Shown: one piece after another, positions 1-53,049 of the stretch | How positions within the stretch are numbered: the first letter of the stretch is position 1 | Layout of the letters: each line of letters begins with the position of its first letter | NCBI GenBank assembly: GCA_015039465.1 | Contig: MU130364.1 | Coordinates: 272,346 to 336,345, forward strand | Length of the DNA stretch: 64,000 nt | Direction of reading: 5' to 3' | Origin: Phlegmacium glaucopus | Taxonomy: Eukaryota > Basidiomycota > Agaricomycetes > Agaricales > Cortinariaceae | Position numbers and translations under genes: made by a program | The notes under the pieces: model-generated | What the model was told of the DNA's origin: nothing | Databases searched by the model: none | The model's input: only the letters and a program-made list of their open reading frames with translations

Positions 1-1287
1 GTGACAGTATCGTTTTCGTTCAGCTTAACCTTTAACAGCAGCAGCTTCACCTTAGCGGTTTAGGAGACGTCTACCACTGTTACATTAGGCACCTTATTTG
101 TGATGAAAAGGTCGTTTGGCAAGTAGAGGTGAGTACTAAGATGTAAAATCGTGAGAAGGAGACTAAAGGTCATGGGAATTGGAACAGGGTAACGTTTCAG
201 GAAAACTTCGTAGGTTTAAAGCTTCGTCGTATTGACCTGTAGGTTGAAAGTCAAATTCTACACGTTCACCTTCACTTGAACTCTGGTTACTTAAGTCTAT
301 GAGACCGCTTATACCGACGTTGAGTAAGTAGGGAAGTAGGCTGTTGAGGTGTCTCAGACGTGAGTTATCGTGTACAAGAAGAGGTCCCTTTGCTAAGTTA
401 TAGAGAAGTAAGTTTAGGACTTGTGATAGTAAAAACGTTCGTTCTTACGTAGACAGGTTCTTCATGACCAGACTAAAGAGTGGTAGGAGTTAAGGTCCTA
501 TTTGAAGAAGGTGGTTCCTCAATTAGCTTATCAGTCCCGTCTACTACGGGACACCTTAGAGTTAGCACAGTCTGAGTAGGTCAGGTCATGGAGGTGGTTG
601 TAAATCGTCGGTTAAACGTTTGAGGACGTAGAGACCTCTAACAAGTTCTGCGTATAAGAGAACCTCCATTACTTAAAGTTGTAAGACGGTTTCACCCGAA
701 GCAGACTATCTACGACGGTGTTGGACGACAGATGACGGTACTCCCTAGTGACCTTCACAAACAGATTTCAGTGGTGGTTTGTTTTGTCACTAAGGTGGTT
801 TACCTCGTAGCTATGGTTCTTGTAGGGCTTCACAAGATAGGTGTCGTAGTTAGTGTACGAACACAACGTAACCGTGAAGTAGGGCCCATTATTAACTACA
901 AACGACCTATTGAACCTTGTATACACTTAAGGCCGGTTATGACGTCTTACTCCACAGCAACTAAACTTATCCTTAAAACTTTGACCTCACTCGTCAAGAC
1001 GGTGGAAGTTCTTCTTCACTACGATACGGACTACTACGTTGTGTTTCTCGATAGAAAAGAACTCGTGTGTGTCGTCGTCGTTAACATAATGTCTGTTTAC
1101 AAAAAGGTGTTGGTGGACGTGACACGTTTTTCTTGTAAAACGATAATAACAACACTTATCAGAGGTAGTGACGTAGTATATGACGGGAGACAGACAGCAA
1201 CTTGTCTCGTCATAACCGACACTAGGACCGTCAGTAGAGAAGTTACAATATTAGTTCGACGAGTAATTCTTCAGACAAAGGTGGGTG
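1..1287. other. Backwards (reversed, not complemented) block encoding Helitron Pif1-like helicase
   Basis: Read right to left on the printed strand, without complementing, this block is one open frame of 429 codons. It carries the Helitron helicase landmarks: Walker A GGCGKT at 1116 down to 1099, then ASSGIASLLLEGGRTAHS near 1045-990, the DEVPMQHKH box near 870-845, FGGDFRQTLPV near 785-745, and PIRLAFAMTV ending at base 1. The next residues expected, NKSQGQS, begin at 1288 in normal orientation, so reversing 1-1287 in place restores a continuous gene. The helicase would unwind donor DNA during rolling-circle transposition. Normal forward or reverse-complement translation of this stretch gives no recognisable protein. 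No recombination event reverses DNA without complementing it, so I infer a data or assembly error. The Rep (HUH) part of the element lies outside the window. Confidence 0.93.
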
Positions 1288-19382: not shown

Positions 19383-19771
19383 ATAGGACCCAGGAGACGT
19401 CTAGGGATGTAAACGCACCATTTTCGCGGTTTCACAACCTTTGCAGTATACTTGCGGATGCTCACATATCGTTGCGGATACTTGCAGATCATCGCAGGTC
19501 ATCGCACATACTCGCACATACTCGCAGCTCATTGCAGAACACTTGCAGATCATCGCAGATGCTTGCAGTCATCACCAACATTCACATTATCATTTGCAGT
19601 TGCCAGCTGTTCTTGCAATCATTAAACACAACTCAAACAAAGGTCACTCAGGTGACTGTATTACTCATCACCTTTATTTTTATCTTGTCTCCTTTATTTG
19701 GCTCTTATCTCCTATGTTTCATTACCAATTTACCGGATCCATGTGACTCCGCTTTAACCCACATTTTACAT
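19383..19771 (+). mobile_element. Left end of hAT transposon (normal orientation part)
   Basis: TAGGGATGTAAACG at 19402 is a typical hAT terminus, followed by words such as TTGCGGAT and TCGCAGATC. The region aligns with 43711-44275 (plus) and the inverse of 53580-53960. The continuation of this sequence is found at the right-hand edge of the backwards block, reading down from 23762. The right terminus of the element was not found, so no target duplication could be confirmed. Confidence 0.65.
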
Positions 19772-19774
19772 TCA

Positions 19775-21360
19775 AGCTAATACTTATACAGCAGGTAGTA
19801 ACGAACTTTGCACCGTCCCCTCAACGTCTCAGGCTTTTTGTATTGACACCCAAACTTATTAGGAAACAACCAAAACTTTCGACGAAAGGTAACCAGAGAC
19901 AGAGCTTACGCATGTAACAACATTGGGGTAGCCTACAGGTCAAACCACTTCATAAACCGCGGAAACTCAAACAGTTACTCAAGCCTCTACTCCCCTTCAC
20001 CCATCCATAAGAACTAACAAGGAAGCAAATTGCAAGCTATCAGAACACATCCCGCATGAAAAGGTAGAAAAAACAACTGCTTCTTCTTACCACTACGGTA
20101 CCCCCTAAACCTACCAGCATATATCGGAAATAGCTCCAAAAGAAACTCCTTAAACAGGTCAAGCCGAACAAGGCCATCACACTCACCCATCTGGAACGTC
20201 AGCGCTCCATACTTTAGCAGAAATTCCAGCTACCGTACTAGCATCCCAGAACGAGGTCCCTTAGCAAGACGCCAAAGGAACAGCTTCTATGCGGTCATTA
20301 GGTATTCAAGGCTACCATAGTAAAGAAGGTCTCAAAAGAGCAGAAAGAAACGTAAAACAAGTGAACGATTCCGTCATCTCTGTAACCAAAACAACTGGGT
20401 CTCAAGCAACAGGTACTGTACCAATTATTTTCGCCGCTGGTCGAGCCAAAGCGACAGCAGCTCCAACTCAAGCTACCAAAGTAAAAGCAGCAGGTTAAAA
20501 TCCTCACAACTTAACTCCCCACTAAGGAGCAGAAGCTGAAGAAGATAACACCGAAAGCCTTCTCAACCTCAAAGCCCCTAGCACCACTGAACAAGAGAAA
20601 AAGAGGTTAGCCCCCTTAGTGAAGAAACATTAAACCAGAAGAAGAAAGAGAAAAGAAAGGTAAAAAGATAACAAAGAAAGTAAAGAAGGAGATGAACCAA
20701 CATAGCACAAAGTAGCTAAAGGTAGGACAAATTCCACCACCACACCCGCAAAACGCAAAGGACATTAGCAACAGCTAAAGAAGCTAACATTCAGTCCCGA
20801 TTAACCACAAAAGGGTAACCTTCTACGTAAGCAGGTCAAGGGGTCAGATAAACCCCAAATACCCGAACCTTGGTCCCCTCAGGTTTATACTGTAGCCGCG
20901 AACGATAACACTGTTGTACCTCAGCAAGGTAGTAGGTCGACAGCGGAACAACTATAGACTAGGTCCACATTACACATTAAAAGGGTAACCTTAATCCCCT
21001 AGGCAGACGTAAAGCCCCCTCATAGCCAAATAGCTCCCCCATATCTTCATAAACCACAGCAAACCGTTTCGGCCGCAAGTATTTCTCAGGAGGACGAGGA
21101 CACAGGTATTCTTAAGCCCGCAGTTGCTAAAACAAGAGAAAGAGTCAAAACGTGCACTATCCCCAGACATCTTAGTATCTAACAAAAGGGTAGAGCCGAT
21201 GATTATGTCTTCTTTAGTAGTCGCTGTGTCTGCAACTTTGACACACGAACGGATTTTTAGGACCAGGAACTGATGAAGCAGATAGTTGAAGAGAAAAAGA
21301 AGACATAGGTATAGAAGTTGATCCAACGCATAGTACCGAGCCCGCCACCACCGACAGAAA
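19775..21360. pseudogene. Ty3/gypsy protease and reverse transcriptase (inside backwards block)
   Basis: Right to left the frame carries the aspartic protease site ILMDTGAGGLFM (about 21112-21078), the pre-RT signature EKTLEEMIPSELMDYWRIFD (20340-20281), ERFPGARPYDHAIDLK (20269-20221), and RT motifs IKNTYPLPLI, KYFTKLDIRWGYNNVRI and GLCNSPATFQAMMDD, ending near 19775. RT copies the element RNA into DNA; the D of FTKLD is one of its three metal-binding aspartates. The YxDD box and about 60 further residues that should link this part to the RNase H region are missing: after correction the frame runs into a stretch of 25 A. Confidence 0.85.
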
Positions 21361-21369
21361 AACTTAGGC

Positions 21370-22560
21370 AACTTAAAGAACATTGACGACAGCAAACCAA
21401 ACTGTATCAAACCCAAACACAAACCCCGCAACAAAACGAACCTCGCCGTAAGTGCCCGTTTCACAGGATAGAACACCGTCACCTTCGTAGAAGCAAGAAA
21501 GTACACAACAAGCGCAAGAAGATACCACTCCGCTAGTTAGAGCCAACACAGCTATAGGTATCGTAACCCTAGTACTACTACTAATTGTATCGCACCGCGT
21601 CCTATTCAAAAGAACCGGACCCCCCACAAAGGCCAAAAAGCGACTCAATAAAGGAACGTAGCAAACATAACTTCTAGCTTAGCTCTCCGAAATCGCATGG
21701 TTAGAAACTACCGACATCCCCCCAAAAGCTCAGGTATCTAAAAGACATTTTCTCTCCACACCTAGGGAAGACTCTTTATCAGCTATTCTCAAAACAGCAG
21801 AAACTAGAACCTAGAAGGGCGCTCCTAAGACTTAACACGCTACATTAGCAGATGACTCAACCAAGGAACAGACTCAACCGCATCAACCCGAGACCGAAGA
21901 GGAAGCCGCAGCCGCCGATTCTTACGAAGAAACTCAAAAAACTACTTTGGCCGTATACAAGGTTTCAGACCCCCACACCATCGCTCTGTAAGCAGTTCCT
22001 TCCGAAGAAAGGTCTAAAATCGTCAAGGCGGTCACTCCTTACTCTCCTATTTCTACTAAACAAACCGGAGTCTCAATATCTAACTTAGTAACTCTCTCTC
22101 CATATGAGCTGTCAGGACCTCCTTCCTATCCTCAGGCAGAGCTAGAGGCACCATACCGACGCCCCCCAACTACGCATGAAGAAAACTGTAAAACAGCAGC
22201 AATAGAAGCACCAGTGATCAATATAGGGTTAGCCTAAAACCGACAACTCGCCCACAAAGTCCAGGTTTCCTCCATCTACCATTACCCCGCCCACAAACCT
22301 TACCCCTCCCTCGTTGCCCACCACACATATGACCCCAAAACTGAAAAGGACTCCATTAGCCACAGACTCCCTGACCAACCAGACAACGCCAACAAGCTCC
22401 CAAAGAAGGATGAGCAAGAACAGAACCAACACAACATCTCGACACCGAGTACGCAAGACCGAGCCCTTCAAAAAGAAGCTCTCCAAGAAGCAACAGCCAC
22501 AGCATAACTGACGAAGGCCAACACAGAAGAAGACTACTACTACTGAGCCATCCCCGAACC
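21370..22560. pseudogene. Ty3/gypsy gag (inside backwards block)
   Basis: Right to left, an open frame runs from an acidic Ser-rich start (near 22560, with an ATG at 22451-22449 giving MSHSSTTQ) through a Pro/Thr-rich linker, a capsid region (IIFILSFLTGGTA near 22045-22010, then LRQLRQGTNSVDDYI near 21875-21845 and YFSEGIHTSLLQKIYG near 21780-21735) to a zinc knuckle CFHCHKIGHFAREC near 21485-21445 (CX2CX4HX4C). Gag forms the virus-like particle and packages element RNA. The frame appears intact apart from the reversal. The true start is uncertain. Confidence 0.85.
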
Positions 22561-22785
22561 ATAAACGGGAAACTGCAGCACCACATAATAGAGAACTCTA
22601 GGCAACCATAGCCGCTGGTGTGCTAGAAGAATACTGAGGCAACTATATCCGCTAGTGTGTTCAAGCCCAATGCTCCTATTAGGTTCATTGACGACCAAAC
22701 AACCGATCACGCACAAAGCAACCCGAGGTCTTCCATTCCAAGCAGACACGAATCTCTTCGCCTGCGTTCTCATCAAATCTGGAAA

Positions 22786-23222
22786 ACAATGCCGCTGATA
22801 TTCGAACGTGAGCGCAAGCCACGACCCGGCTATCTGGTTTATTGATCCCTGAATCATGTTGACGTTAGCACAAGTTGTTCAGAATCTGACTTCTGCCGCC
22901 TAAGACTCGTTCGTCCTATCTAATCTTGGCATCACAATGTTTCCAGATTTGATTCCCAGTACCGATACCCATACCGAGAATATATATGATTCCCCAGCTC
23001 AGTCTCTATCCCTTACCAGGCACGACCCTCATCCTCAGTTATGCTCAGTCTCTATCCCCTCTGCCTTCGCTATCGATTCATATCATGTACCTTCCAAGTC
23101 CCGTCTCCCACTTATCCCTTGTTCCACCACATTTCTCTCTTGCTACTTCCTTCTATACTACATGTTATCTCTTTCCCCTCTTTTTCCTTACCCCCGGTAC
23201 GCGCATGGTCTGCAAATATTGT
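22786..23222. mobile_element. 5' LTR of Ty3/gypsy element (inside backwards block)
   Basis: Right to left it starts TGTTATAAACGTCTGGTACG at 23222 and ends GCCGTAACA at 22786, 437 bases. It matches the 3' LTR at 27799-28235 and the solo LTR at 53967-54397. The 5-base flank GATAT (23227-23223) equals the flank after the 3' LTR. Confidence 0.92.
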
Positions 23223-23227
23223 TATAG

Positions 23228-23456
23228 TGACGTTGTATCCGAAACAACAATCCCCTCCAGGTACGTAGGCACCGCTTCGACTCCCACGGTAGTACGAGGA
23301 CAAAAATCAAAACCATTCACATAAAACGGAAATTTAATTAGGGTTGACTAGGGTGGACATTGTAAAACCGTTATACAAACGTGTCTGTTTATGTAAAAAG
23401 TGTAGGACACTCTGACAAAGACGACTTCCATACACTATAAGACCGACTGGACAATA
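23228..23456. pseudogene. hAT transposase, N-terminal exons (inside backwards block)
   Basis: Right to left, 23456-23356 encodes YHIPSAETVSQDVKNVFV and, after a one-base slip, AKMLQ, then a GTGGGA donor. After an AACAG acceptor, 23298-23228 encodes EHDGTLSFATDAWTSPNNKA and YVAV. This is the N-terminal catalytic region of fungal Ac-like hAT transposases; the FATDAWTS aspartate belongs to the DDE set. The gypsy element interrupts it at GATAT, and the protein resumes at 29593 with VTVHFYNDG. Confidence 0.8.
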
Positions 23457-23758
23457 GCAACTACATGGACGCCACCCCTGTCTGGCGTTCATCATGTGTC
23501 AAGTACCCCAACTACATCAAGAGAAGTCATCCACTATCACTCCAAAATACTCCACGCTTCCAAGCGAAATTTCACGCTCTATTACGCGTCTTTTTCGCTT
23601 CGGACGTCCTACTAAAAACTTCCTCACGTTCTCATCGAATCATGTTGCAAGGTTTCCACCCTAGTTTTCACACCATTAAGCAGGCAAGAGGGGAGAGAAA
23701 TGGGATGAACGATGACGATTATTATATCATTGATCGTTATCGATTCACGCCTTTCCAC

Positions 23759-23764
<6 letters not shown>

Positions 23765-23789
<25 letters not shown>
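23765..23789 (+). repeat. Run of 25 A at a block junction
   Basis: An uninterrupted poly(A) tract sits exactly between the backwards block and the RNase H region, where about 180 bases of RT coding are expected. It may be gap-fill error rather than biology. Confidence 0.8.
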
Positions 23790-25911
23790 CTCGCTATGGA
23801 CCCGGTAAAACTCGCTGGAATCGCTGACTGGCCTGCACCTACTTCAGTACACGAAATCCGCTCATTCCTAGGTTTTGGGAACTATTACCGACGATTCATC
23901 CAAGGATATGGCAATATGACAAAACCATTGAACGACCTACTCAAGAAAGACACCAAATTCGAATGGACACCCGAACGAAGCCAAGCTTTCGAAATGCTAA
24001 AAAGGAAATTCACTGAATCCCCAGTTCTACGAATGCCTGACGCAACAAAACCCTTTGAACTCGAAACAGACGCCTCTAAATACGCATCAGGAGCAGTACT
24101 ACGACAACAAGACAACAATGGAGACTGGCACCCTTGTGGATATTTATCCAAATCATTCAACAATACGGAACGAAACTATGAGATCTACGACCGAGAACTT
24201 CTAGCTATTATTCGAGCCCTCAAAGAATGGCGACACTATTTGATGGGAAACCCATACCCAGTCACCGTACGCTCTGATCACAAAAACCTGACCTACTTCA
24301 AAACCGCTCAAAAACTCAATCGACGACAAGCTCGATGGAGCCTTTTCCTCTCCGAGTTTGACATTCACCTCACACATGTACCCGGAACCCAAATGGTTCA
24401 ATCCGATGCCCTTTCACGACGAGCCGACCTTACGGTTGGAATGGAAAATGACAATGAAGATCGCACATTACTCCCCGATAATCTTTTCGTTAACGCCATT
24501 GACATGGAACTCCAAGAACTAATAACTTCTACAAAACAAATGGACGATGTTGTCAAAACTGCTTTACATGCGATACTCCATGGTGGACCCCTCCCTATGT
24601 GCTCTGCCCTTAGTGACTGGCGAACCGATGGCGACCTGGTTTTCTATAAAAACCGTTGCTACATACCCGACAATATGGACTTACGCCGTAACATCGTTCA
24701 AAAACACCACGACTCTATCCCTGCCGGACACCCTGGCCGTCTTGTTACCCAAAACTTAGTTCAACGCGACTATTGGTGGCCTGGAATGGCTACATTCATT
24801 CGACACTATGTTGATGGCTGCGCCATCTGTCAACAACACAAGATAAACCGTCACCCTATTTCCCCGCCTTTACAACCTATCCGTTCCGAACAACTCCGCC
24901 CGTTCTCTCTGATCACTATGGACTTCATCACAGACCTCCCTCCCTCCGATGGCTTTGACTCTATCATGGTCGTGGTCGACCACGGGTCTACGAAGGGGGT
25001 AATTCTAACCCCATGCCACAAAACAATTGATGCCAACGGAACCGCCTCTATCTTACTTGATTCGCTCTACAAAAGATACGGATTACCAGACAAAGCTATC
25101 TCCGACCGCGGCCCCCAATTCGCCTCTCACGTCTTTTGGGAATTAGGACGACTTCTTGGTATCAACCTAGTCATGAGCACAGCCCATCACCCACAAACAG
25201 ACGGCGCTACCGAAAGAGCAAACCAAGAAATCGAAGCTTATCTATCCATCTTCTGCACAAATAACCCTGACCAATGGCGACAATACCTCCCCACCCTTGA
25301 GTTCTCTTACAACACCAAACCACATGCTACACAAAAAGAATCTCCCCTATTCCTCCAAATGGGCTATAACCCAACCGCTATCCCCACTGCGTTCCCTAGA
25401 ACCAACATCCCTGACACCCAAGAACGCCTTATCAATCTCCAAGAAGCACGGAAAGAAGCCAATGCGGCCCATGAACTCGCACGACAAGTCATGACCGAAC
25501 GTATTACCCGAGGTTTCACCCCATTCAAGATAGGAGATAAGGTGTGGCTCGAGTCACGATACCTTAAACTGCGATACGAAACCAAGAAGATGGCACCTAA
25601 ACGAGAAGGCCCCTTCAAAGTCATAGAAGTTCTAAGTCCCCTCAGCTACCGCCTGGAACTACCTCACTCCTGGAGAATTCATCCAGTCATTCATATCACG
25701 CTACTTTCCCCTTACAAGACAAATGGAGTCTATGGCGATAACTTCCCACAACCACCTCCTGACCTTATCGAAGGCCAACCGGAGTACGAAGTCGAGTCAA
25801 TAATTTCCCACAGACGACAGGGAAGAGGATACGCTTTCCTTATAAAATGGAAAGGATATTCAACTGCAGAAAACACCTGGGAACCCGAACGAAATGTCAC
25901 CAATTCACAAA
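23790..25911 (+). CDS. Ty3/gypsy pol: RNase H, integrase, chromodomain (partial)
   Basis: The frame reads LAMDPVKLAGIADWPAP and continues open to the assembly gap. RNase H follows with ELETDASKYASGAVL, YDRELLAI, VRSDHKNLTYF and SDALSRR. The integrase has the HHCC zinc finger (HHDSIPAGHPG ... CAICQQHK), then catalytic ITMDFITDLP, ISDRGPQFAS and GATERANQEIEAYL (D, D, E), the GPF module (KREGPFKVIEVLSPLSYRLE) and a chromodomain (YEVESIISHRRQG ... FLIKWKGYSTAENTWEPE). Integrase inserts the cDNA; chromodomains of this clade target heterochromatin marks. The N terminus (protease, RT) is in the backwards block and the C terminus is cut by the N run. All catalytic residues seen here are intact and CG content is high, suggesting a recent insertion. 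Confidence 0.95.
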
Positions 25912-26078
25912 NNNNNNNNNNNNNNNNNNNNNNNNNNNNNNNNNNNNNNNNNNNNNNNNNNNNNNNNNNNNNNNNNNNNNNNNNNNNNNNNNNNNNNNNN
26001 NNNNNNNNNNNNNNNNNNNNNNNNNNNNNNNNNNNNNNNNNNNNNNNNNNNNNNNNNNNNNNNNNNNNNNNNNNNNNN
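25912..26078. other. Assembly gap, 167 N
   Basis: A run of 167 N separates the chromodomain end from the third backwards block. The pol stop codon and the start of the next ORF should lie here. Confidence 1.
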
Positions 26079-26900
26079 CCCCTCAGCTGTTGATCGTGTC
26101 ACAAGACCAAGAACAGCAGCAGCAAACCCCTCTCCCCGAAACAGAAGAAGAAACAAAAACCCCGTTAACGATCCGGTCACAGGTCCCCGGTGAGCAAATG
26201 TTCTCCCCGTAGACATCCGCGGCGTAAGAACAAACGCTACAGGTTCCCATGGCGTAACTTTCGTAAAACCAGCCGATCACCCACGAGCACAGCACATACC
26301 CTATCTAGCCTACTCTCCCTATAATCGGAGTCTGCCAACAGCTCATTCACCAACCCCTGCTTATGCTCAAGGTCAAAGAAGTCTTCCCAATGATTCTCCT
26401 TATAACAAACCCTTTCACTGTCCTCTTAATCCCCCTCGCCCCTAGGTTTCCAACTGTCAACCTTAACAATCTCAGTCTCAGACAAGCTAAGCAAACGAAT
26501 TAGGTAATTAAAGTTCCGCCCCCTACTCAACAGCCTATAATACAAGAACTCAACGTAAACAAACAGCATTAAGAACACGGTAAAACTATTCCGAACGACG
26601 GTAGAAAAGATTCCATAATCGAACACCTTCATGGTCAGCTACCACCGTCATCCGCTACAGCTTACAAAACTTCAGCCTCAGTACCCAGGTTAGAGCTTCT
26701 ACCAGAGCATACATCCAAGCCATTACCCTTATACACCCCTTAACTCTCAGCTTATAAACCTAATATAGAACTTAAGACTTAACAACTAACCATCATCATC
26801 TAGAACGTCCTTTCCTACCCCCCTCACCCTTAACACATCGTTTCTTACATCACACCTGTAACTCCCCAAGCAAGAGTTCCTATCATCGTTCCTCTTCTAC
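26079..26900. other. Backwards (reversed, not complemented) block encoding post-pol CCHC ORF
   Basis: Right to left the block is 822 bases, exactly 274 open codons. It begins HLLLATILENEPLNV and includes YSHYRTYIRDHLRDWTHDSD, FDIAYCHHRLVLPQANTLEK, RLEINGLSKRIEQ, the knuckle CFQCGTLGHRKQEC (CX2CX4HX4C) and a second Cys cluster YRCPSCKRVAPGHWPSNC, and ends EHCASCRLP at 26079. The frame continues without a break at 26901. This is a DNA/RNA-binding type protein, distinct from gag, which has its own knuckle at about 21485-21445. Similar CCHC ORFs of unknown role are familiar to me from agaricomycete genomes. It lies between integrase and 3' LTR, the position of env in retroviruses, but has no signal peptide or membrane helix. 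Confidence 0.88.
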
Positions 26901-27782: not shown

Positions 27783-27798
27783 GCTAACAGTGGGCTAA

Positions 27799-28235
27799 TG
27801 TTATAAACGTCTGGTACGCGCATGGCCCCCATTCCTTTTTCTCCCCTTTCTCTACTGTACATCATATCTTCCTTCATCGTTCTCTCTTTACACCACCTTG
27901 TTCCCTATTCACCCTCTGCCCTGAACCTTCCATGTACTATACTTAGCTATCACTTCCGTCTCCCCTATCTCTGACTCGTATTGACTCCCACTCCCAGCAC
28001 GGACCATTCCCTATCTCTGACTCGACCCCTTAGTATATATAAGAGCCATACCCATAGCCATGACCCTTAGTTTAGACCTTTGTAACACTACGGTTCTAAT
28101 CTATCCTGCTTGCTCAGAATCCGCCGTCTTCAGTCTAAGACTTGTTGAACACGATTGCAGTTGTACTAAGTCCCTAGTTATTTGGTCTATCGGCCCAGCA
28201 CCGAACGCGAGTGCAAGCTTATAGTCGCCGTAACA
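27799..28235 (+). mobile_element. 3' LTR of Ty3/gypsy element
   Basis: 437 bases from TGTTATAAACGTC to CGCCGTAACA, followed by GATAT (28236-28240), the same five bases found outside the 5' LTR. A TATA-like box (AGTATATATAAGAGCC, near 28031) marks the U3/R promoter. Confidence 0.95.
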
Positions 28236-28240
28236 GATAT

Positions 28241-29174: not shown

Positions 29175-29592
29175 AGTATGACAACTTGTAAATAAATCAT
29201 CAGATTGTAACTTTCTTACCACCCACCAATTTTAAGTTGGTGTTAAAGAAATAAAGTAACAAGCCTTTTGAACCAGAAGTAAAAAGAGAATTAGCATTTG
29301 ATTCTGTGTATTGGTTACACAGACAAAATTGCATTTGTCACTGAATTTTGTATTTGGAAATATTGAAATTGTGACATTTAAGTTAGTGTATTGGTTACAC
29401 TATTGGGTTATCAAAGTTGGTCTTTGATAGTTGAATAAAATATACAGGTTCATTCACACTTACAAAGTGAATATTATTATTGTGTGTTAAATCAATAAAT
29501 TGGGATGGCTATACTTCCTAGGAAGCCCGTATCACAATTCCAAAGAGTTTTAGTTGTGTTTTATTTCACTTATATCACAACCAACCTATCAG
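29175..29592. other. Intron remainder of hAT gene, no gene
   Basis: AT-rich stretch ending in the acceptor CTATCAG at 29592, which opens the next transposase exon. Short hairpins (ACCAATTTTAAGTTGGT near 29225-29241) are visible. Confidence 0.4.
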
Positions 29593-30779
29593 TGGTTACT
29601 GTGCACTTTATAATGATGGTGTCGCCATGTCGATGTTGCTTGCTGTTGTTGAGGTTGCCAAGTTGCACTCAGGAGTCAACCTGGCACTCGCATTTGCCAA
29701 AATCCTTGATGACTTCAGAATCAGTGGCAAGGTAAGTAAATATTGCTTAAGAATTAATGAGGCACTCACTTTTCATACAGATCTCCTTAGTGTAGCATGC
29801 GATAACACATCCAAATTTCTACACATTTTAGATTTGGTTGTAAAGAGTATTATTAAACAATTTGACTTACTGAAGGCCCGAGGGGACATACTTGGCAAGG
29901 CAAAGACTGAGCTTTTCAATTTGGCAGGAAATATTCAACTAGAAGGACTACAGTCACAACAAGAAACCAATAGTGATGAAGATGATGATAACACTGAGGG
30001 ATGGGTTGATGAGTGTGAGGAGATGACAGCTTGGGAGCAGAAAGATCTTGACAAGAGTGTGGGACCATTAAGATTGATGTTAACTAAGGTAAGAAACATT
30101 TCAATTGGAGTTTAAAATCTTATCAGATTGCACAGCTTCACAAAACAACCTTCACAATCAAGAATTCTACAACTATTATACTGCCAAAATGGTTTTCTAT
30201 TCTTGAAGACTTAGGACTTGCTGCTCATATGATGCTCCGTGATGTAACCAAATGCTGGAACTCCACATATGATATGCTTGAATTTGCACTCAGCTACCAT
30301 ACAGCTCTGGAGAATGTAACAAGTGATCATGAAATGAAGCTGAGGCAATTCAAATTGAGTGAGGAGGATTGGGGTATTGCAGCCCATTTGCGTGATGCCT
30401 TAAAGGTAAGTATGTGAAACCTGCCATTTTTTATGTTAAACTAATGATATAAAACTTACAGATGTTCAAAGATGCTACCCTTTTTTTTTCATGTGGTACA
30501 CCAAACCTCGCTATGGTGATTCCTGCCATGGATCATAACAACCAACACCTCACCACTTCTGCCACAGATGGCAATTACCTGATAGCATTAAAAGCTGCTC
30601 TTGCAATAAGTAGGGAAACTCTTGACCAATATTATGACAAAACAGACCATTCTGAGGTCTACTGGATTACCATGGGTATGTACCAGAGTTTTGATTTTAT
30701 AATTATTGATTTAACATTAATCTGTACAGTGCTCCATCCCAGACACAAGCTCAAGTACTTTGCAAAGGCTGGCTGGAAC

Positions 30780-39720: not shown

Positions 39721-40849
39721 TTTTATTCTTATTTTCCTGTGCTCTAGCCTTACAAAGGCCAGGGAGAATAAAAATAAGAATAAAGAAGAGCAAAGGTTAA
39801 AGGTTAAGAAAAAAAATTAAAAAATCAAAAAAAATGAGCCCTTCCAGATTCACAACTCTGATAACAATTAGATACTCACTGTTATTTGATTATGGAAGGC
39901 TTAGCCTTAGACTTGTAATGCACAGAGATAGGAGGAGAGGGTAGAGGATGGTAGAAGAGAGAGTCTTTGGATAAAGACTATAGTGAAGGGTGGATAGATT
40001 GACATATGGACTGCATCATTCTGTATATAAAAGAAGACAATTTGTTGTACTCAGCAAGAACCAATTCCATATGTCTGATCCTATATCATTAAAATGATCA
40101 GGAATGAATTCAACAATATTCGGCTGCATCCTCTATGGTTTGTTGTCCTTTTGCAATGCTGAAAAGCTCTTTCTAGATAAACTGTTCAAATTTTAAAATG
40201 ATATCAGGTCAGCCATTACCAAGCACTTTTGAATACTATATAAAAATTGTGAATATTGTTAATAAATGACACATGATAGATGTTAATAAATGCCAGATTA
40301 AAATGAGGACAACCAACCTGAGAAATTTACAAGCAAAGTCTGTCTGGCAACAATGAAGCAGTAAATAAAAGGCAAAAAATGGCAAATGCCCCATGTTGGT
40401 CCTTTATAACAACAATTGGTGAGTTGAACTTAGAGATTCATAGTGACTTTTATGACTGACGGTATTATCTATAGCGATCATCGTCACAGTGTTCTGTTTG
40501 TTTGTGACAATTGATGATTGTGATAATTGTACTTTACAAATTTGGTGGCTGTATAAAGTGCATTACACACTCAAAGCAATAATGAAGGAAATTCAAACTT
40601 TACATGGTGGAATTATATTTCTTAGGATGTACCAATGTAATATGAATCACTTTCTCTCTCCAAGTTCTTGATTGACGGGCTTTAGAGGGTGCCTAAAATT
40701 GAACCTTGCCTGTGCCAAGACTTAGGTGTCACATCTGTCACATGGCAATGTGATGATTCTCCATCCTTCCTGATATATGATATTATCCCTTGTTTGGAGA
40801 CCATAACAGATATTTATCAAATTTACAAACTCTGGAAATTTACCACATC
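39721..40849. other. Repeat spacer, no gene
   Basis: CpG-poor sequence with LTR-like text (GAGGATGGTAGAAGAGAGAG and following, 39925-40030) related to repeat family Y. Short frames only. Confidence 0.4.
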
Positions 40850-41430
40850 AGGAAAAACATTTTTGCCCTAGGACAGTCTAAGGACACTCTAAAATACTCT
40901 AAGACACCCCCAGAGCTCTTAGAGCCTTAGAGCTCCAAGAGTGCTCTAAGAAGGTACTATTCCAATGTCTTTTTTTTTGAAAACTCAGAGGGTGTCCTAG
41001 GTATGTCCTGGGTATGTCCTGGGGCAACCTGAGAGCATCCCTGAGGCAGCCTTAGTCCCCTTATATCTGATGCTAGGACCAGATATTTGAATAGTCTCAC
41101 ACAACAGAATTATAATAATATAATAAAATAATATTCAATTATTCTAAACATCATATATACTAGTAATAAGATAATAATAAAATAGTGATACAAAGTTATA
41201 TACTAGTACTATAATACTGGGGGAAGTAGGAAATAAGAAAACAAAATTGTCGGTGGTTTATATATCTTTTGGATGGCGCACAGACCATTGGTCACATGAT
41301 CACAGATAAGCATGATTTCGAGCATATGGTGCTGGGTCAGGGTAGATTACATAAAATTCCAAAAAAGGAAATTTTTTTTAAAGGTGGTAGAGAATTGTTT
41401 TAGGACCCTGAATATGTTTAAATTATATTA
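40850..41430 (+). repeat. Left arm of a long inverted repeat
   Basis: Starts ATCAGGAAAAACA and contains arrays of CTCTAAGA/TCTTAGAG words (40870-40960). It aligns with the inverse of 48838-48415 and, continuing, of 46700-46545: about 580 bases per arm. No matching target duplication flanks the pair. Confidence 0.75.
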
Positions 41431-41484
41431 ATAGCAGCTCTCCTTATTGAGAAAATTGCAAAATACCTTTCTGGACATGGTGGT

Positions 41485-41653
41485 TCATCAGGAAAATCAC
41501 TTTAGCTCTAAGACACTCTAGCTACTCTGGGAGTCTCTCAGACCAACCTCAAAAAATAAATATGTTTCAAATGCATTTTTTTAGTGATTTGTACACTTAA
41601 ATTTTTGAGGTTGCTCTGAGAGACTCTTAGAGCCAAAGTGTTTTTCCTGATGA
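41485..41653. mobile_element. Palindromic MITE, 169 bases
   Basis: Ends TCATCAGGAAAA and TTTTTCCTGATGA; the arms (CTCTAAGACACTCTAG and CTGAGAGACTCTTAGAG) fold back on each other. It shares its terminus with the long inverted repeat at 40850 and 48838, so it is likely a deletion derivative. Confidence 0.7.
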
Positions 41654-43130
41654 GCTCATCAGCAAAATGAAAAAGACAATGTTGATTCTTGACCAGAACA
41701 TACCAATGATGTGATCTGGATCAAGAAGACCCTGGGTTTGATACTGATCATAGAGCGTGTTGGGAACAAAGGCTTGTAGTGCACCAAAAGACCTTAACAT
41801 ATCTCTCCATATACAATGTGTTGGAGTTTTCATTGAAGGCAAAGGGATTGTTGATATTTGGTGAGGTCGAAACTAAGCGATGCAATTCTGGGTCAGAGAA
41901 TTGGGATTGATATGTGTAGATCAAATCCTTGAATTTCTCGTAGTGTTTGGAATCCTGACAGATTATATGGGCGGGGGTTCCAGGGAACATTGTGGCAAGG
42001 TAGAGGAAGTCATTTGCTGTGTGTCGACCAAATCCAGCAAAAGCTTCAGATTTATTGGTGCAGATCTCATGGATAATTCTATGGGTCAGAGGTGGATCCA
42101 TTTGAACCTTTAGCCTCCCATCTTTGCTAGCAAATATTAACCATTGTCAGGTGATGCATGAACAATAAAAAGGAAGAGTGAGCTCACATAAAATAACTAT
42201 CAATTTGAAAAGTTGAATGTTTAGCCTTTTTCAATGTTTCATATTCAACAAGCACATCTTGGCACCAGCTTTCCAAGTACCAGTCAGGGCCACCTTTGAA
42301 ATGGTTGAAGAGATGCCAGCCCTGAGAGTAAAAAGGAAGAAATTTTTTTTATTGAGGTTTATATTTTTGAAAGAGAAAGAGAAAAAGTTACTGATCCTCC
42401 AATCTCAAAATCTGACCCATCCCATGGCTTCTGGCGACTTGTTACATGCATCCTCACTAGTCCAGTGAAGTCATTAATACCCCAGACCCACTTCAGGGAG
42501 ACAAAGATGGCATATAATTTGATTGTTCAGGGGTAGTTGATGAGGAGTGTGGGACTATGAATTCCTTGGGAATATGAAAGTTACTGATGGATTCACTCTT
42601 GCTGGTGTCAGGGTTAGGACCAGGGAAGTCTTCAGAAACTATCTCATAATATACTTCAGGCGTCATCCCGATGATATTAGCTTCCAGGCCAAAATTTATC
42701 ACACAGGCATGGTGTCCAGCAGCCATGAGAACCAGTTTGCCACGAGAAACACAGATGAGGGGGCCAGGAGGTGATTTTCCCATAAGGTACAGGAAATCCT
42801 CTGTGACTGCACATTGAATCCAGTGTTCTGGAGCTTCAGTCCATGTTGTTGACACTGAGGGATCTGCAATATATTGATGAATGTGGTTGGGGATTGCAAA
42901 GTCATTGACAGCTGAGGTTAATGTCTTGTATTTTCATTTAGCCGAGCCCATTGAATGTGTGATAGGGATGGGAACAAATGAAACTGAGTTGATGTTGAGC
43001 AAATAATGGACACATCCATCCATTCATAAGCTCACTCACATTCGAGATTCTGAATTTCCCCAGGAGAAAGACCTGATCCTTTTACAAACTCCACAATCTT
43101 TGTGATTGCTTTTCCCTCTGGAATTTCCAG
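41654..43130 (-). pseudogene. Unrecognised protein gene relic (several exons)
   Basis: Minus-strand pieces in order: LEIPEGKAITKIVEFVKGSG (about 43120-43060, followed by a GTGAGT donor), IPNHIHQYIADPSVSTTWTE (42895-42840), HWIQCAVTEDFLYLMGKSPP, VLMAAGHHACVINFGLEANI (to about 42670), MTPEVYYEIVSEDFPGPNPD, then GWHLFNHFKGGPDWYLESWC (42325-42265) and MDPPLTHRIIHEICTNKSEA (42101-42042), FGRHTANDFLYLATMFPGTP, SKHYEKFKDLIYTYQSQFSD. The pieces look like one protein of more than 350 residues with internal repeats of an ITEDFLYLM/ANDFLYLATM theme. I do not know the family. Stops and frame changes between pieces indicate decay or unresolved introns. Confidence 0.45.
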
Positions 43131-43137
43131 CATGTAA

Positions 43138-43615
43138 CACTGCTGGCACTGGGTGGTGTTTCCCTTAGAAAAATTTATTTTTAGAAATGTTTTGTCATTT
43201 CCAAATAATTTCTCTCATGAAAACACAAAAAGTATTTCTGAAGGAAAAATTCTAAAAATACATCAGGTGTTTCTCATGTGTTTCCCAAAGATAAATTTTA
43301 TGTTTTTTAAAGGGTTTCCTTTCAGAAACAGCAGGGAAACACCTATTCCACTTAGTGATAAGTGGAAACAGCAGGGAAACACCTATTCCACTTATCACTA
43401 AGTGGAATAGGTGTTTCCCTGCTGTTTCTGAAAGGAAAACCTTTAAAAAACATAAAATTTATCTTTGGGAAACACATGAAAAACACCTGATGTATTTTTA
43501 GAATTTTTCCTTCAGAAATACTTTTTGTGTTTTCATGAGAAAAATTATTTGGAAATGACAAAACATTTCTAAAATAAAGTTTTTCTAAGGGAAACACCAC
43601 CCAGTGCCAGCAGTG
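43138..43615. mobile_element. Long palindromic Tourist-like MITE with TAA duplication
   Basis: 478 bases that fold almost completely on themselves: arms of about 230 bases, from CACTGCTGGCACTGGGTGG at 43138 to its complement at 43615, centred near 43376. TAA flanks both ends (43135-43137, 43616-43618), the duplication of PIF/Harbinger elements. Because the arms match, mirrored 82-codon frames occur on both strands; they are by-products of the palindrome. Confidence 0.88.
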
Positions 43616-43710
43616 TAAGGAGCAGCAGTGTAAGGAATGAAGAACTTACTGACATGGATTAACATCACATGACTCAGACTCAGTGGCACCATTGTTAGAC
43701 CTGTATAGCA

Positions 43711-44560
43711 TTGATAGGATCCATATAACCTCTAGGTTCATAAACTGGTTATTTTTGCGATTTAACAACTTCGCAGTATATGCGGATGCCTCACGGGTAC
43801 CAACTTTATTTGCACTCTCATTTGCAGCTCTCGCACATCCTTCACACCTCACACAACATAATATAGTCCTCGCATGACCTTCACACATCACTTCTATGAC
43901 CTTCATAACTATCCAAAGCACCCTCATTTCTCTTTGCATTTCATACTTCGACATATCTTCAGTTCTCTCAGTCAATATTTGGACTTAATCATTTCATCCT
44001 TTCGCAACCACACCTTTGCACAGCCACTATCTAATCTCGCGGTCTTTCATGGCTCGCATACGCATCCCTTTCACTGGTTTTATCATGGTCTGTGTTGTTT
44101 TCAACTTACTTTCTTTTGACTTTCCATATATATAATTTTATCATCTCCTTCGAAACAGGAGGTCATTCAACTGGCCTCCTTACTCATCACTTTTATTTTT
44201 ACTTTATCTCCTATTCCTTTGTTACCAAACTACTGGGTTCATGTGACCTTGCATTAGCTCAATTTTTACATTACTGTTTTGCATATCCGCACCCGGTTAG
44301 TTACAACTCTTGTATTAAGTATCCATAGCAAGTAGGAGGGAAGGTGAACAAGAGATGGCCAGAGTTTTGATCCCATAAGCTTTGCAGCAATGTTCTAAGT
44401 CAATAGTCTCATCCTTTAAGCTACTTCGCGTACCATGTTATCGTTCGCGAACTTCGCTATCTTCGTGGTCTACTTGTCTTGCGTATTTCAATACCACAAA
44501 TACTACTTGCGGTCTGATCCCACCACAGGTACATCAGCATAGAATACAGACATAAAATAT
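43711..44560 (+). repeat. hAT left-end related repeat (copy 2)
   Basis: Aligns with 19383-19771 and then with the backwards block read down from 23762 to about 23465. Begins near TCTAGGTTCATAAACTGG. No transposase follows, so it is a truncated copy. It served as the independent template that located the lower join of the backwards block. Confidence 0.7.
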
Positions 44561-45123
44561 GATCTATCTTTACCCAACTCTAATCTTCTATCTAAGTCTT
44601 CTATCCCCTTACAAACTCGCATCAATTCAATTACTACATCTGGAGCCCAAGGGGGTAGGCATCTTCAACCCTATTCCTTCTGCCCCAAGATCTATCCACT
44701 ATGAAACAGAAACATCACTCTGCCACTAGCCCTATCCACTATGGAAAAAACACCATATCAGTAACAGAAGACACCCAAGACGACACCAGTCCTATTCCTA
44801 TTCTATTCCAAAACTGCATCAGTAACCAAAGACAACCAAAAGATGATGCTTTACCTGTTCAAGTACCTGCTAGCACCGTGAGAAGTCCAAGTGAGGGCAA
44901 AACAATAGAGGATACCTGTGAAAAGAAAGAGTTAATCAGAAAGAAGTTGAGATGAAAAGATTATGACTCAAGATATATCCAGATGAGCTAGAAGAGTTTC
45001 TTGAAGAACTTGAAGAGTTGGCCCAAAGGAAGGAGCTGACCTCAAGAGAGAAGGCTACCAATGAAATCAGAAAATGTGACTGCTAGGTATCATACATTTG
45101 GCGGTGTACAGGACTTGAAACGG
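44561..45123. other. Low-coding spacer
   Basis: A frame at 44701-44955 (Thr/Ser/Lys-rich, ending CEKKELIRKKLR) is open for 84 codons but has no family signal. Related text (GCCCTATTCC, CCACTATG) is repeated locally. Confidence 0.35.
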
Positions 45124-45870
45124 TATAAATCATTGTTTGTGTTGTTATAAAACACCAACCAGAGAGCAGTGGACCAGTCTTTAGGTCAAGAGACTCCCTG
45201 TTGTCCGTTTAGGGAAGGTGTAACCTTGACTTGTAACACACAGAGGTAGGGGGTGAGAATAGAGATGAAGGAGGATGAGAATGAATGAGAAAGAGTCTCC
45301 AGTAAGACTATAGCAGTTGACAGTTGGTTGACAGTGAGGGACTGAAAAAGCGAACTTAGAGGGATTAAGAAAGAGGATGAGGAGGAATAAGAAGGAGTCT
45401 TCAGCAAGACTATAGCAATTGATATCAGGGGACAGTAACAGATAAAAGGCTGAAAAAGCGAACTTGAGGGAGGAATTCACTGGAATTCCACTGAGAGGAT
45501 GACTGTTGGGGGGTAAGAATGAATTGAGATAAACTACCTATCCTGGTACAAAAGAGCAGTATTTATACCCTAAGGATGAGGCTATGTAGAACAATAAAAA
45601 AAGAAAGAAGTATGCGCTGTCAAAGGAAGAATGATGAAGAGAGGACAGCTGCAAGAAGAAAAGAACAATGGAAAAGAAAAAGGAACAATAAAAGAATCTG
45701 TAAAGTGTCAAAGTGTGAGAGAAAAGAAGAGAAGGCAGTGTACATAGTCCAATAGCAAAAATATATCGGCTCCATAGGTGTGTGGTCATGTCAAATATGT
45801 GAAAGGTCCTGAGTCAACACTTGAAAGGCGCAGCCTTGCTCCCGAGAAAATACTACTTGCCCATGATCCC
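45124..45870. repeat. Repeat family Y, left-half copy
   Basis: From TATAAATCATTGTTTGTGTT it matches 46821-47370 (same orientation) and the inverse of 52303-51560. A TATA-like box and TTTATACCC text lie near 45560 on the minus strand. The right half of the family is absent. Confidence 0.75.
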
Positions 45871-46544
45871 ATGATACATGTCGTTAGTCATCATCATCAA
45901 CATGGTTATGCTCTACCAACTGGAATTGTTTGCATTTGTGTTTGTCTGTGTTCATTTGTGCTTGTTGTTGTTATTGTACATTGTACTCCTGTTATAATGT
46001 GTTATTAGTGGAATAAATATCCCCTCATGAAGGGGGGTTACCATTGCTGGTTGTGGTCCCTGTTGTTATGGTGGCTGTCAAAATGGGCATTGTGGTGGTG
46101 ATGGTGGTGTGAGAAACAAACAACAAACTCAACAAACAGTGATGACCACATGTGATGTGGTCACATGATCACACCCCACGCACTAAACAAAATAAATGAT
46201 CTTGATAGCAGCATGCCATTGCCACCAAGTCTTGGTATATTATATAATTTAGCATAAGTATACTATTTTTTTAGTAAAGTCAGGTGATTCATTTCCTAAG
46301 CTTGCAACTCAATTCTGCTCAGAAATTGGTCAGATTCTGGTTGAAAATTGGTCAGACTTGGATCTGATCAGATCTGATCAGATCTGGTCAGATAAATTGG
46401 CTCTGTTACTGCTATTTGGGGTGGTAAAAATTCTCACTGGAATCTGATCAGATCTGGTGGATCACAGCAAAGACCTCCATTTTTTAATTAATTAATTATT
46501 ATCATATCATTCCTTTATTTATTATTAGTACTTAAATACCCCTC
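45871..46544. other. Spacer with GATCTGATCA array
   Basis: 46320-46465 repeats the palindromic word GATCTGATCAGATCTG, like the subterminal arrays of the hAT-type MITEs in this window. A C-run/G-run hairpin (CCCCTCATGAAGGGGGG) lies at 46021-46038. No gene was seen. Confidence 0.45.
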
Positions 46545-48838
46545 AGCCTAGCAGGGTCCTAAAACAATTCTCTACCACCTTTAAAAAAATTTCCTTTTTG
46601 GAATTTTATGTAATCTACCCTGACCCAGCATATGCTCGAAATCATGCTTATCTGTGATCATGTGACCAATGGTCTGTGTGCCATCCAAAAGATATATAAA
46701 TTTGTTTCTACAGCAAAGCGAGGTACAAGCAAAGAGATAGAATTCAGTCTTTGAGAAGACAAGAAGTGCATCACGTGCACATTCTCCTCTTTCTCTTCAT
46801 CCTCGCTGGCATAGAAGCGCTATAAATCATTGTTTGTGTTGTTATAAAACTTAAATACCAACCAGAGGGAACTGGACCAGACTTTAGGTCAGAATATCCC
46901 CCTGTGTTCGTTTAGGGAAGGTATAACCAGAGACTAGTAAGCACACTTGGTAAAAAGAGAGTAGAGGAAGAGGAGGATGATCAAGGAAGAGTCTTTGGTG
47001 AGACTATAACGGTTGACAGTAGGGGACAGAAACAGATAAAAGGCTGAAAAAAGCGAACTTGAGGGAGGAATTCACTGGAATTCCACTGAGATGATGACTG
47101 TAGGAAAGTAAGAATGGATTGAACTGAACTACCTATCCTGGGACAGCTGCAAGAAGAAAAGATCAATGGAAAAGAAAAAGGAACAGTAAAAGAATCTGTA
47201 AAGTGTCAAAGTGCGAGAGAAAAGAAGAGAAGGCAGTGTACACAGTCCAATAGCAAAAATATATCAACTCCAAAGGCATGTGGTCATGTCAAATATGTGA
47301 AAGGTCCTGAGTCAACACTTGAAAGGCGCAGTCTTGTTCCTGAGAAAATACTACTTGCCCATGATCCTATGTCGCGCAGCCTTGATAACACTTGACACAC
47401 TGCAAGAATAATCCTCTGCTGCTGATTCATCTGCAATTCCTGCTTAATCGTGATCCTCCTGGACTTCCTAAATTGTCATAAAGAGGGTGGGAAGGCTTCA
47501 GGTACTGCGTGAATGATGGTTTTGGCAGTGAGTGATAAGATAAGAGGTAGATGAGTGAGGATAGGGGACTGAGTGCGATCCAGGAGCGAGGTATGGCAAG
47601 ATAGATGGCTGAGGTGAAGACTTGTGGGTCCATAGCCACAACAACGATGACAAAGCCTTTGACATAATGGGAGATGTAGCTGATGCATCCATAAACAGGC
47701 CGTTCTTGAAATGATGGGCCATAGATGCGATCAAACGTGAGCCAATGACCAATGCAAATAGTAGATTGATCGCTTTGTTGTATCACTAGCCAAGGGACAA
47801 ATGGATGGTAGATGTTAAAGAGCATGTTGATAGTGTAAATGATAGACAACATAGTGGAAGACATTGAGGATATGATGAGCGATGAGGATTTTATCGTCAA
47901 ATGAATGATTTTGTTGACCAGGAATGCAATTCAGGGCTGCTTCCAAAATAGGTAAGTGAATTCAAAGTCCGCTTATTTTCATGATGGCAACTTTTAAGCT
48001 TTGTTCTCATGCTACTAATCAGTATTGGTGCACGATAGCGCTCAACAAGAATCCCGGGTCGAGCTCCTATGGCATTACTCCTTTTCCTTTTCACCCACCC
48101 TCCTCTCCCTTAGCTTCGGCTTGTCAACAAACAACAGTGCCTTTTGATCTGAAAAGACCCAACAACGATTCAACCTCTCAATGCTTCATGGTCAAACCTT
48201 ATACCAAAGCGTGGCCCACCCACCCACGCATCTCATATCAAGACCCTTATCTCGCTGTTGGATTTTTCCAGGTTTGGAACACACTTCATGTGTTTTCACC
48301 CAACTAGCTTACATAGCCACCGTAGTCTTAGCCACAACTTAAATTAAAACATTAGGCATACACTTTTAATTTCAGTTGTCTCAACCAGTCATAGCACTGG
48401 AAGTCGTAACGCAAAGACCACCCACAATTTTGTTTTCCTATTTCCTACTTCCCCCAGTATTATAGTACTAGTATATAACTTTGTATCACTATTTTATTAT
48501 TATCTTATTACTAGTATATATGATGTTTAGAATAATTGAATATTATTTTATTATATTATTATAATTCTGTTGTGTGAGACTATTCAAATATCTGGTCCTA
48601 GCATCAGATATAAGGGGACTAAGGCTGCCTCAGGGATGCTCTCAGGTTGCCCCAGGACATACCCAGGACAGACCTAGGACAACCTCTGAGTTTTCAAAAA
48701 AAAAGACATTGGAATAGTACCTTCTTAGAGCACTCTTGGAGCTCTAAGGCTCTAAGAGCTCTGGGGGTGTCTTAGAGTATTTTGGAGTGTCCTTAGACTG
48801 TCCTAGGGCAAAAGTGTTTTTCCTGATGTCAAGACCTC
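46545..48838 (-). repeat. Right arm of the long inverted repeat, split by family Y
   Basis: 46545-46700 and 48415-48838 together match the inverse of 41430-40850. The 1.7-kb insert between them includes a full family Y copy. Confidence 0.75.
46821..48036. mobile_element. Repeat family Y, full copy
   Basis: About 1.2 kb from TATAAATCATTG to TTGGTGCACGAT, flanked by AGCGC on both sides (46816-46820, 48037-48041), a possible 5-base target duplication. The minus strand has a 157-codon frame (MSSTMLSIIYTINMLFNIYH, and so on) that is also open in the 50912-52303 copy, but it has no known domain. The class is unresolved; a long LTR is possible because the family has TATA-like sequence. Confidence 0.6.
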
Positions 48839-49630
48839 ATGGTTATCTTTGATAACCACCTTAGAATTCAACTTGATTCCCAGGTCCTTACATTCTCTAA
48901 CAATTACAGATTCAGCACCAGCAATTGATATTATATAAATACTAAATGTTTGTCCTATATTATCATCAAAGCCATAGGACATATTCTGCTTAAGATTTTA
49001 TGTTATGTTTTAAGCCAGGTTGTTAGTAATTTTAACCACAAGAATAGTGGAGAGAAGACCTTTTTTATTATTTTTACCTCTTCTCAAAGCCTCACTATTA
49101 TTTAGAAATTTTTTGAATAGAAAATCAAAAATATCGAAATATATCAAAAATAAAGAAGTTGAATGTATTAATAATGAAAATGTAAGTTTAAATAGAGCAT
49201 TTAATACTGTAGATGAATATATAGATTTTACAATTGTATTTATATTTATATGTTTATTTTGTGAGGCTAGAGTGCACTTGCACTAGGGAAATAATTAAGT
49301 GGTTAATCTTCCCAGCAACCAGGCTGGCTTACCAAGCTCTCATTTCCAACACAAATTTCATCAATTTCTCACATCTTCCTGAGCTCCCTCCTCAGGGTCC
49401 CATGTCAATTTACCTGGGATTTACCAGCCCCATAAATTTGGCAAAATATCTCTACTTATACAATGCTTACCAAGCCCATCAAACTCCCATCCCCATGTCT
49501 TAGATTTGAAACAGAGACTAGAATTCCAGGGACTTGACTTGTGTCATCAAACACTGTTCTCAACATGTTTTTCCACAGAATCTCCACCAGTGCCATCTAG
49601 ATCTGCTATGCTGGGACCAAAACTACACCT
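48839..49630. other. LTR E fragment and AT-rich spacer
   Basis: 48836-48903 matches the 3' end of LTR family E (hairpin GGTTATCTTTGATAACC, then CTCTAACA). 48960-49290 is very AT-rich with an 88-codon frame and could be another mitochondrial or plasmid-derived insert. No gene is identified. Confidence 0.45.
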
Positions 49631-49818
49631 TTGATTAAAAAGTTCCCAGTGACATTATGTCTTATCTGGGACAAGCCTACTTCATATGAATTCTCATCAG
49701 CCCAGGATATAACCACATTCTTAGGCTCAAAACCAAAAAAAAATCTGATGGACCCTAAAACTGGACAAGCTGCTCTTCCTCATCAGATCCACAAGATTGA
49801 TCCTGATGTTGTGTATGA
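49631..49818 (+). pseudogene. Relic of the unrecognised repeated ORF (copy 2)
   Basis: Frame IKKFPVTLCLIWDKPTSYEF, DITTFLGSKPKKNLMDPKTG, ALPHQIHKIDPDVVYDV is cut by the copia element at TATGA. The sequence resumes at 52869 with TATGATGTTGG. Homologous to the minus-strand relic at 36780-37200. Function unknown. Confidence 0.5.
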
Positions 49819-49957
49819 TGTTGGAATAAAAACCATGACAGGGCAGCATGGTGGTGAACGAGCAATGAGCTATGAATTTGAAGTCAAGTTTTATTGTTGT
49901 TTACTGCGGAGTATTAAATAAAATTATGTAATCTATGGTATTGGCAGGAGTCATATT

Positions 49958-50894
49958 TCAACACACCCCCTGAGTCCTGACACCCCCATATTGTAACAAA
50001 ATAAAAATAGAAATAATGAATGTGGTATATGTAAAATAATATATACAAAAAGGATGTGAGAGGTAGGGAATGAGGAAGGATTGCAAAAGAAATAATAAAT
50101 TAAAAACTAAAAGAATCATGCTCACATTTCTTGGAGTGGCATCTAGGATGGCGATTCTTCTTGATCTTTGGTTCCACCAAAGTAGGGTTTGATTCTGGGT
50201 GAGATAAGGATGGAGGGATGGGGTTTGGTTCATCAGAGTTATCAGAAGTGGTTGTGATTTAGTGAATGCAAAGAGAGTTTTCATAGGGTCATCATTGATG
50301 ACAGCAACAATGGCAGAGTCAGAATGATTGAGTGTCTTACATTTGACATCTTCTGGCATGTTTGTGACGCAGAATCAAGCTTGATGATTTGGTTGTCCAC
50401 ACCTATAGCACACCCCCTCACAATTCTTTGAATTCCCCCAATCAAAACCTTCATCCTCATCACAACTGCAATTCCTCCCTTTCCACTTCAATTCACCCCC
50501 TTTTCCTCTGGCATATAACACTGAATCACCATACTCTTTCTTCACCACTATTTCCACTGCCCATTTGTTTGCCTCATATTGCTGGAGGGCTGAGGTGATT
50601 TTGTCAATGGTTGGGGATTTTGGCTGAAGCATAAGAGTAGTATGAACTGGAGCCCAGGATGAGTCTAGACCAATGAGGATCTTGTCGCTAACCTCAAGAT
50701 CATCAGGTTTGTGACTGATGGCATCAAGTTTTCATACAATCAACAATACATTATTGGTGAATTTGGATATGGGAAGGGAGGGGTCGTGAGATGGAATAAA
50801 ATTGTTGACAGAGACAGATTCAATTTGTGGCACTATCCTTGTGGTATTCAGAGATGAGTTTAGCCCAGGCTTCCTTTCTGGATTTGGTGGTGAC
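49958..50894 (-). pseudogene. Copia gag, C-terminal part with zinc knuckle
   Basis: The frame resumes with KEAWAKLISEYHKDSATN, then KLDAISHKPDDLEVSDKILI, GLDSSWAPVHTTL, ITSALQQYEANKW and the knuckle CYRCGQPNHQA-stop-FC near 50400-50360. The stop is TGA where CX2CX4HX4C copia knuckles usually have Arg (CGA). Other stops (for example after DSATN) also replace Arg. The protein would have formed particles and bound RNA. Confidence 0.8.
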
Positions 50895-50911
50895 AATCAG
50901 GGAGCAATATC

Positions 50912-52303: not shown

Positions 52304-52528
52304 CAATTTATAGTGGTGGTTGGGATCAACTAGGAACCAGATTGTGGCATATACCTTCTGGTCTTGGTCCTTGGACCTCCCATTCCAAAGCTTTCTCACC
52401 TTAGGTTTGGTACTAGCCAGATGCCTCCCACAACCAATCAGCATGAGGTAAGTCTCAACCTCCTTTTTCCATTCAAAGCAGTTGTTGCTAGTGAGTTTGG
52501 GAAGGGAGAGGATAACAGCACAATCCAT
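52289..52528 (-). pseudogene. Copia gag, N-terminal part
   Basis: From a possible ATG at 52528 the frame reads MDCAVILSLPKLTSNNCFEW, KKEVETYLMLIGCGRHLAST and TIWFLVDPNHHY. This is the DUF4219/UBN2-type gag start of copia elements (LPKLTSxNxxEWK...FLVDPxxH). It ends at the family Y insertion; the remainder is at 50894-49958. Confidence 0.8.
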
Positions 52529-52873: not shown

Positions 52874-53038
52874 TGTTGGAGGCTCTGGTTGTCCAGGCTG
52901 GCCTTGTCATGAGGCCGTGCCATTGATGTACCAGCGGTGAGGTCAGACTGCAAGTTAATACATAGGTTCATGGGGTTAATGTAGAATTCCTTGATAGAAT
53001 GCAGGAGTAGTTCACAGTATTGAAATACACAAAGAGAG
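52874..53038. other. Short spacer, no gene
   Basis: Unique-looking DNA between the copia element and a 19-base repeat; no feature seen. Confidence 0.4.
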
Positions 53039-53049
53039 TAAACCGCAAA

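Follow-up and report, generated by a model that had tools for sequence, protein, structure and literature searches.

Why should a stretch of about 4 kb inside a retrotransposon make sense only when its letters are read from right to left, without complementing, and does this reflect the biology of the organism or the way in which its genome was assembled? The question arose from a preliminary description of the window (the whole 64-kb stretch of DNA analysed here, C132:272346-336345), and we have addressed it by searching the window and the complete genome assembly (60,534,613 bases, 259 contigs). The block, at 19774-23764, is indeed readable sensibly only from right to left and uncomplemented. 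It and similar blocks elsewhere are almost certainly an artefact of genome assembly that came from a fault in gap filling, a data error and not biology.

A block reversed in place

A search within the window aligned the letter-reversed block with the LTR at 27796-28235, on the plus strand, for 440 nt at 99.1% identity; the block as printed, searched against both strands at E 1e-3, had no further match there. The contrast at genome scale was equally sharp for the piece of the block that carries reverse transcriptase (RT; 19772-20571): as printed, the sole place found was the piece itself (1 candidate), and with its letters reversed all 40 scored places, of 167 candidates, matched, the best at 98%. 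Most copies among the matches listed span positions 1-798 of this 800-nt query, and the block therefore begins at 19774; at the other end, copies start at reversed 23764 or 23763. The edges of 19772 and 23762 given in the preliminary description are thus two bases off, and the block itself exists as described.

To locate the left join, the printed flank at 19400-19773 and the start of the reversed block were searched in the genome as separate queries. At 12 of the 12 loci common to both sets of listed matches, position 19773 abuts reversed 23764 with 0 nt between them, and a scripted join search gave a reference gap of 0 with loci L042, L043 and L046 and of 1 with L044. As the two pieces abut gaplessly in genome copies, the reversal took place in situ, over exactly this block.

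The right edge is different. Among the 40 listed RT matches, 32 have a match to the start of the remaining pol (23790) less than 1 kb downstream (8 are unpaired), and the spacing between the two is exactly 192 bp in 30 of these copies, 189 in one and 605 in one; where the copies carry these 192 bp, the window has exactly 25 A. Reversal of the block does not by itself restore the element: the gene stays interrupted after the block is flipped because 192 bp are missing at its right edge. Judging from their position and from RT anatomy, the missing bases probably include the RT catalytic motif, and with 192 bp absent at the gap the element as printed holds no complete RT.

A retrotransposon interrupted at two gaps

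Reading the block in reverse reveals the 5' part of an element that we take to be a Ty3/gypsy retrotransposon of the chromovirus type (Table 1). Its two LTRs are 437 nt each and identical at 434 positions (3 mismatches; reversed 5' LTR against 27799-28235), and GATAT stands before the reversed 5' LTR and after the 3' LTR. Two open reading frames of the reversed string, 444 aa and 514 aa in length, gave Pfam matches to Retrotrans_gag (5.6e-11) and RVT_1 (5.6e-16), and none of the five printed-frame ORFs of the block matched a Pfam family at E 1e-3. Downstream of the placeholder, the normally printed 23790-25910 encodes RNase H, integrase and chromodomain families by Pfam, its pieces having been searched apart. 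Gag and RT, which had been read from the sequence alone together with a protease, are thus upheld by Pfam; no Pfam protease family was matched in the ORFs of the reversed block, and the protease in the 514-aa ORF is therefore a presumed one, named from a motif. The longest printed ORF (23709-26093) crosses the 25-A placeholder, so that a false poly-lysine stretch precedes pol, and automatic gene models may take it in.

Table 1. Features of the reversed blocks and of the sequence around them (positions in the window; a dot marks features given no strand).
Feature	Position	Strand	Details
Repeat, normally printed	19400..19773	+	joins reversed 23764 gaplessly in copies
Reversed block, putative left gap extension	19774..23764	.	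3,991 nt, printed reversed without complement; reversed-string matches and joins
Protease-RT ORF (protease presumed)	19774..21315	.	514 aa, RVT_1; reversed string only
gag ORF	21255..22586	.	444 aa, Retrotrans_gag; reversed string only
5' LTR, reversed	22786..23222	.	437 nt; LTR alignment
GATAT target duplication, reversed	23223..23227	.	
Upstream flank within reversed block	23228..23764	.	earlier 'hAT exons'; hAT unconfirmed
Run of exactly 25 A	23765..23789	+	placeholder for 192 missing bp
Remainder of pol, normal print	23790..25911	+	RNase H, integrase, chromodomain; Pfam
N gap	25912..26078	+	167 bases
Second reversed block, putative right extension of N gap	26079..26890	.	26079-26676 by matches
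3' LTR, normal print	27799..28235	+	437 nt
GATAT target duplication, normal print	28236..28240	+	

Beyond the GATAT, the reversed block ends in an upstream flank, the outer ~308 nt of which belong to another genomic repeat that continues from 19773. This flank had been described as two hAT exons, and its alignment with 44275-44560 had been counted, with the equal LTR lengths and the GATAT duplication, among three signals fixing the reversal. The latter two hold. The hAT alignment is weaker than stated, amounting within the window to short stretches at 44319-44566 (tblastn E 0.002) and, at the nucleotide level, to 36 nt at 91.7%, and copies of the other repeat place the left join more securely. 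The name hAT found no support in Pfam or the PDB: window 29522-30112 and two flank peptides matched no Pfam family, hAT included, and PDB matches were at E 8 or worse, these being short fragments for which such results are weak evidence. The claim of an in-place reversal without complementing is borne out, by the reversed-string matches, the LTRs, the GATAT and the left join, and the proposed check of reversing the block as a string gave aligned LTRs (434/437), RVT_1 and matches at all 40 scored places.

A second reversed block, which the preliminary description does not mention, lies in the same element. To the right of the 167-base N gap, 26079-26676 matched locus L010 at 92.5% only when reversed, with L008 and L033 in agreement over shorter lengths. 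Reversed 26079 ends, and forward matches restart with 26891, on one and the same base of each reference (2837 in L010, 597 in L008, 284 in L033). As this join falls at one reference base in each of three copies, we infer that 26079-26890 is the right-hand extension at the N gap, printed in reverse; 26677-26890, which has no reference of its own, would belong to it by virtue of where the forward matches restart.

Recurrence at gaps across the genome

Other blocks were found at gaps elsewhere. The reversed letters of the LTR occur at 8 places in the genome, the window's own included. Among the loci that matched reversed letters of LTR, pol or repeat queries, 16 of 20 hold a run of at least 25 A or a run of N in the stretch fetched, compared with 4 of 17 control loci matched by forward letters, one of these four controls being L006, where reversed sequence adjoins the N run. 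The four other reversed-letter loci comprise two with a run of 25 A at ~2.3 kb (L058) and ~3.5 kb (L067), one with an N run at ~2.5 kb (L059), and L057, which has a weak reversed match of 69% and no run in the stretch examined. Left joins were found at 7 sites, with a best reference gap of 0 at the window, S21, S28, L031, L032 and L033; at S22 it is 7 nt. Another 8 sites had reversed matches but yielded no left join against the reference set used. On contig C237 (S28), reversed extensions lie on both sides of a 36-A run, and the right-hand join overlaps by ~25 nt. The pattern at these sites runs from left contig through reversed left extension, gap and reversed right extension to right contig, though one of the two extensions may be lacking.

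At least one stretch of non-transposon sequence is affected too. At L012 (contig C5), a 228-aa ORF of ankyrin repeats, at 1527-2210, exists only in the reversed string and begins directly after a run of 25 A; reversed, this stretch matches the Pfam Ank family at 6.8e-48, and the printed ORF gave a single match below the curated cut-off.

The runs of A themselves are distributed very unevenly between the strands. Exactly 25 A occur 157 times on the plus strand and once on the minus strand, exactly 24 A zero times and once, and 26 or more A 141 and 13 times, so that runs of 25 or more sum to 298 on the plus strand and 14 on the minus strand. The 25-A runs look like gap placeholders, and because the strand on which a contig is deposited is arbitrary, the bias points to the assembly process. 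The sole minus-strand run of exactly 25 A (C82:25316-25342) and a 44-T run at L050 (C6) are possibly natural poly(A).

As an unselected sample we took the first 22 plus-strand A-run loci in contig order (15 with 25 A, 7 longer). A reversed stretch was present at 7 of the 22 (L012, L019, L021, L022, L049, L051 and L052), a lower bound and not a rate because the reference set is small; at 8 neither orientation matched, and 7 had forward matches only, which in 0 of these 7 touch the run on both sides. To the right of the 25 A at L020, an ORF in normal print encodes a Tet_JBP oxygenase domain (Pfam 1.4e-17). The right part of L022 matches L003 1939-3107 at regular offsets of ~126 nt, which suggests a tandem repeat in L003.

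Composition scans support the reversal reading weakly. Order-3 scores of 750-nt pieces were negative, that is reversed-leaning, for 7 of 15 pieces left of a 25-A run against a baseline of 6 of 36, and pieces to the right (3 of 15 negative) had no reversed lean; the most negative kilobase of the window (1-1000, -48 to -54 millibit per base) is distant from any gap, and such scores are too weak for single sites and cannot map blocks. Rfam and tRNA scans of the window gave 0 matches. In the region 40845-57978 of the window, long repeats with 82-98% identity are numerous, both inverted and direct, and this repeat nest may be a cause of assembly gaps.

Origin of the reversed blocks

A chromosomal inversion of half the element would likewise have disturbed the order of gag and RT relative to the remaining pol. 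An inversion, however, gives the reverse complement, which a BLAST search of both strands can match, and the printed block has no match in the window and the printed RT piece none in the genome, so that we regard this explanation as vanishingly improbable. An error in which the letters kept their order and were complemented without reversal looks like a plain reversal if strand and order are ignored, but it predicts that the end of RT should lie beside 19773 and the upstream flank beside the gap. The copies show the opposite, 19773 leading to reversed 23764 in 12 of 12 and RT lying, in 30 of 32, 192 bp ahead of 23790 and in the same orientation, and such an error is extremely unlikely. Both candidates were rejected on the non-matches of the printed block and the joins in the copies.

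A reversed copy might also be made naturally, by non-complementary ('inverted', 3'-to-5') polymerisation, which has reportedly been proposed by Seligmann, to go by titles cited in PMC5591391. We know of no accepted enzyme that copies in this way, and the reversed stretches track assembly gaps and placeholder runs on one strand, which would be invisible to chemistry; we consider this origin vanishingly improbable. A reversal introduced only once the assembly had been deposited, while this data set was being handled, and so absent from the published assembly, is very unlikely, given that the pattern depends on the positions of gaps and recurs over contigs of the genome.

The searches themselves establish that the letters are reversed, where the first block joins on the left and the second on the right, that 192 bp are missing, that the A-runs favour one strand and that reversed stretches recur beside other gaps. 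We infer that these stretches were added by a gap-filler whose smallest permitted gap was 25 bases. In the mechanism that we propose, a gap-filling step would lengthen contigs at their ends, into the scaffold gaps. Each extension that failed to meet its counterpart would be put in the correct place but with its letters simply reversed, and what was left of the gap would be filled with 25 or more A or stay N. In the window, two extensions would have been reversed in place in this way, a left one at 19774-23764 and a right one, belonging to the next gap, at 26079-26890. The fault itself would appear to be one of careless letter handling, with reversal performed without complementing and N written as A, and a fault in PBJelly, in another tool or in later processing is the likely source of both. 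In open-licence PMC, none of the matches listed was a relevant published description of such a string-reversal fault.

Implications and comparison with known systems

Reversed letters evade ordinary checks, as base composition is kept and ORFs are still present, and there are simply no matches. In this genome the 298 plus-strand runs of 25 or more A are places to check, and strand-wise counts of 25-A runs together with reversed-string searches would bring the same fault to light in further assemblies. Sequences that resemble non-complementary copies may have a mundane source in this fault. It is possible, if rather doubtful, that all of this reflects an undescribed and repeatable tool fault, recognizable by reversed extensions and one-strand runs of at least 25 A, that is present in other public genomes, corrupts their gene and repeat annotation and could feed claims of naturally inverted, non-complementary nucleic acids.

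The element shares with Ty3/gypsy retrotransposons of the chromovirus type its LTRs, 5-bp duplication, gag, RT, RNase H, integrase and chromodomain, and RT is followed here, as in those elements, by RNase H, integrase and then the chromodomain. It differs from them in print only, with its 5' half reversed, 192 bp gone within RT, an N gap and a second reversed block. The tool PBJelly, as described in the excerpted text of its paper (PMC3504050), treats 25 or more N as a gap, gives unclosable gaps extensions of their flanks and keeps the reduced gap as N. The 25-base minimum and the extensions on one or both sides of a gap are PBJelly-like in this respect; the remainder here is A and not N, and the extension is reversed, on which the same excerpted text is silent (PMC3504050). 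The blocks also resemble the 'inverted' or 'swinger' sequences, as these are presented in the excerpted text of PMC5591391, in being related to a known sequence by a transformation other than the reverse complement, and differ from them in that the cause here is tied to assembly gaps and needs no biological process.
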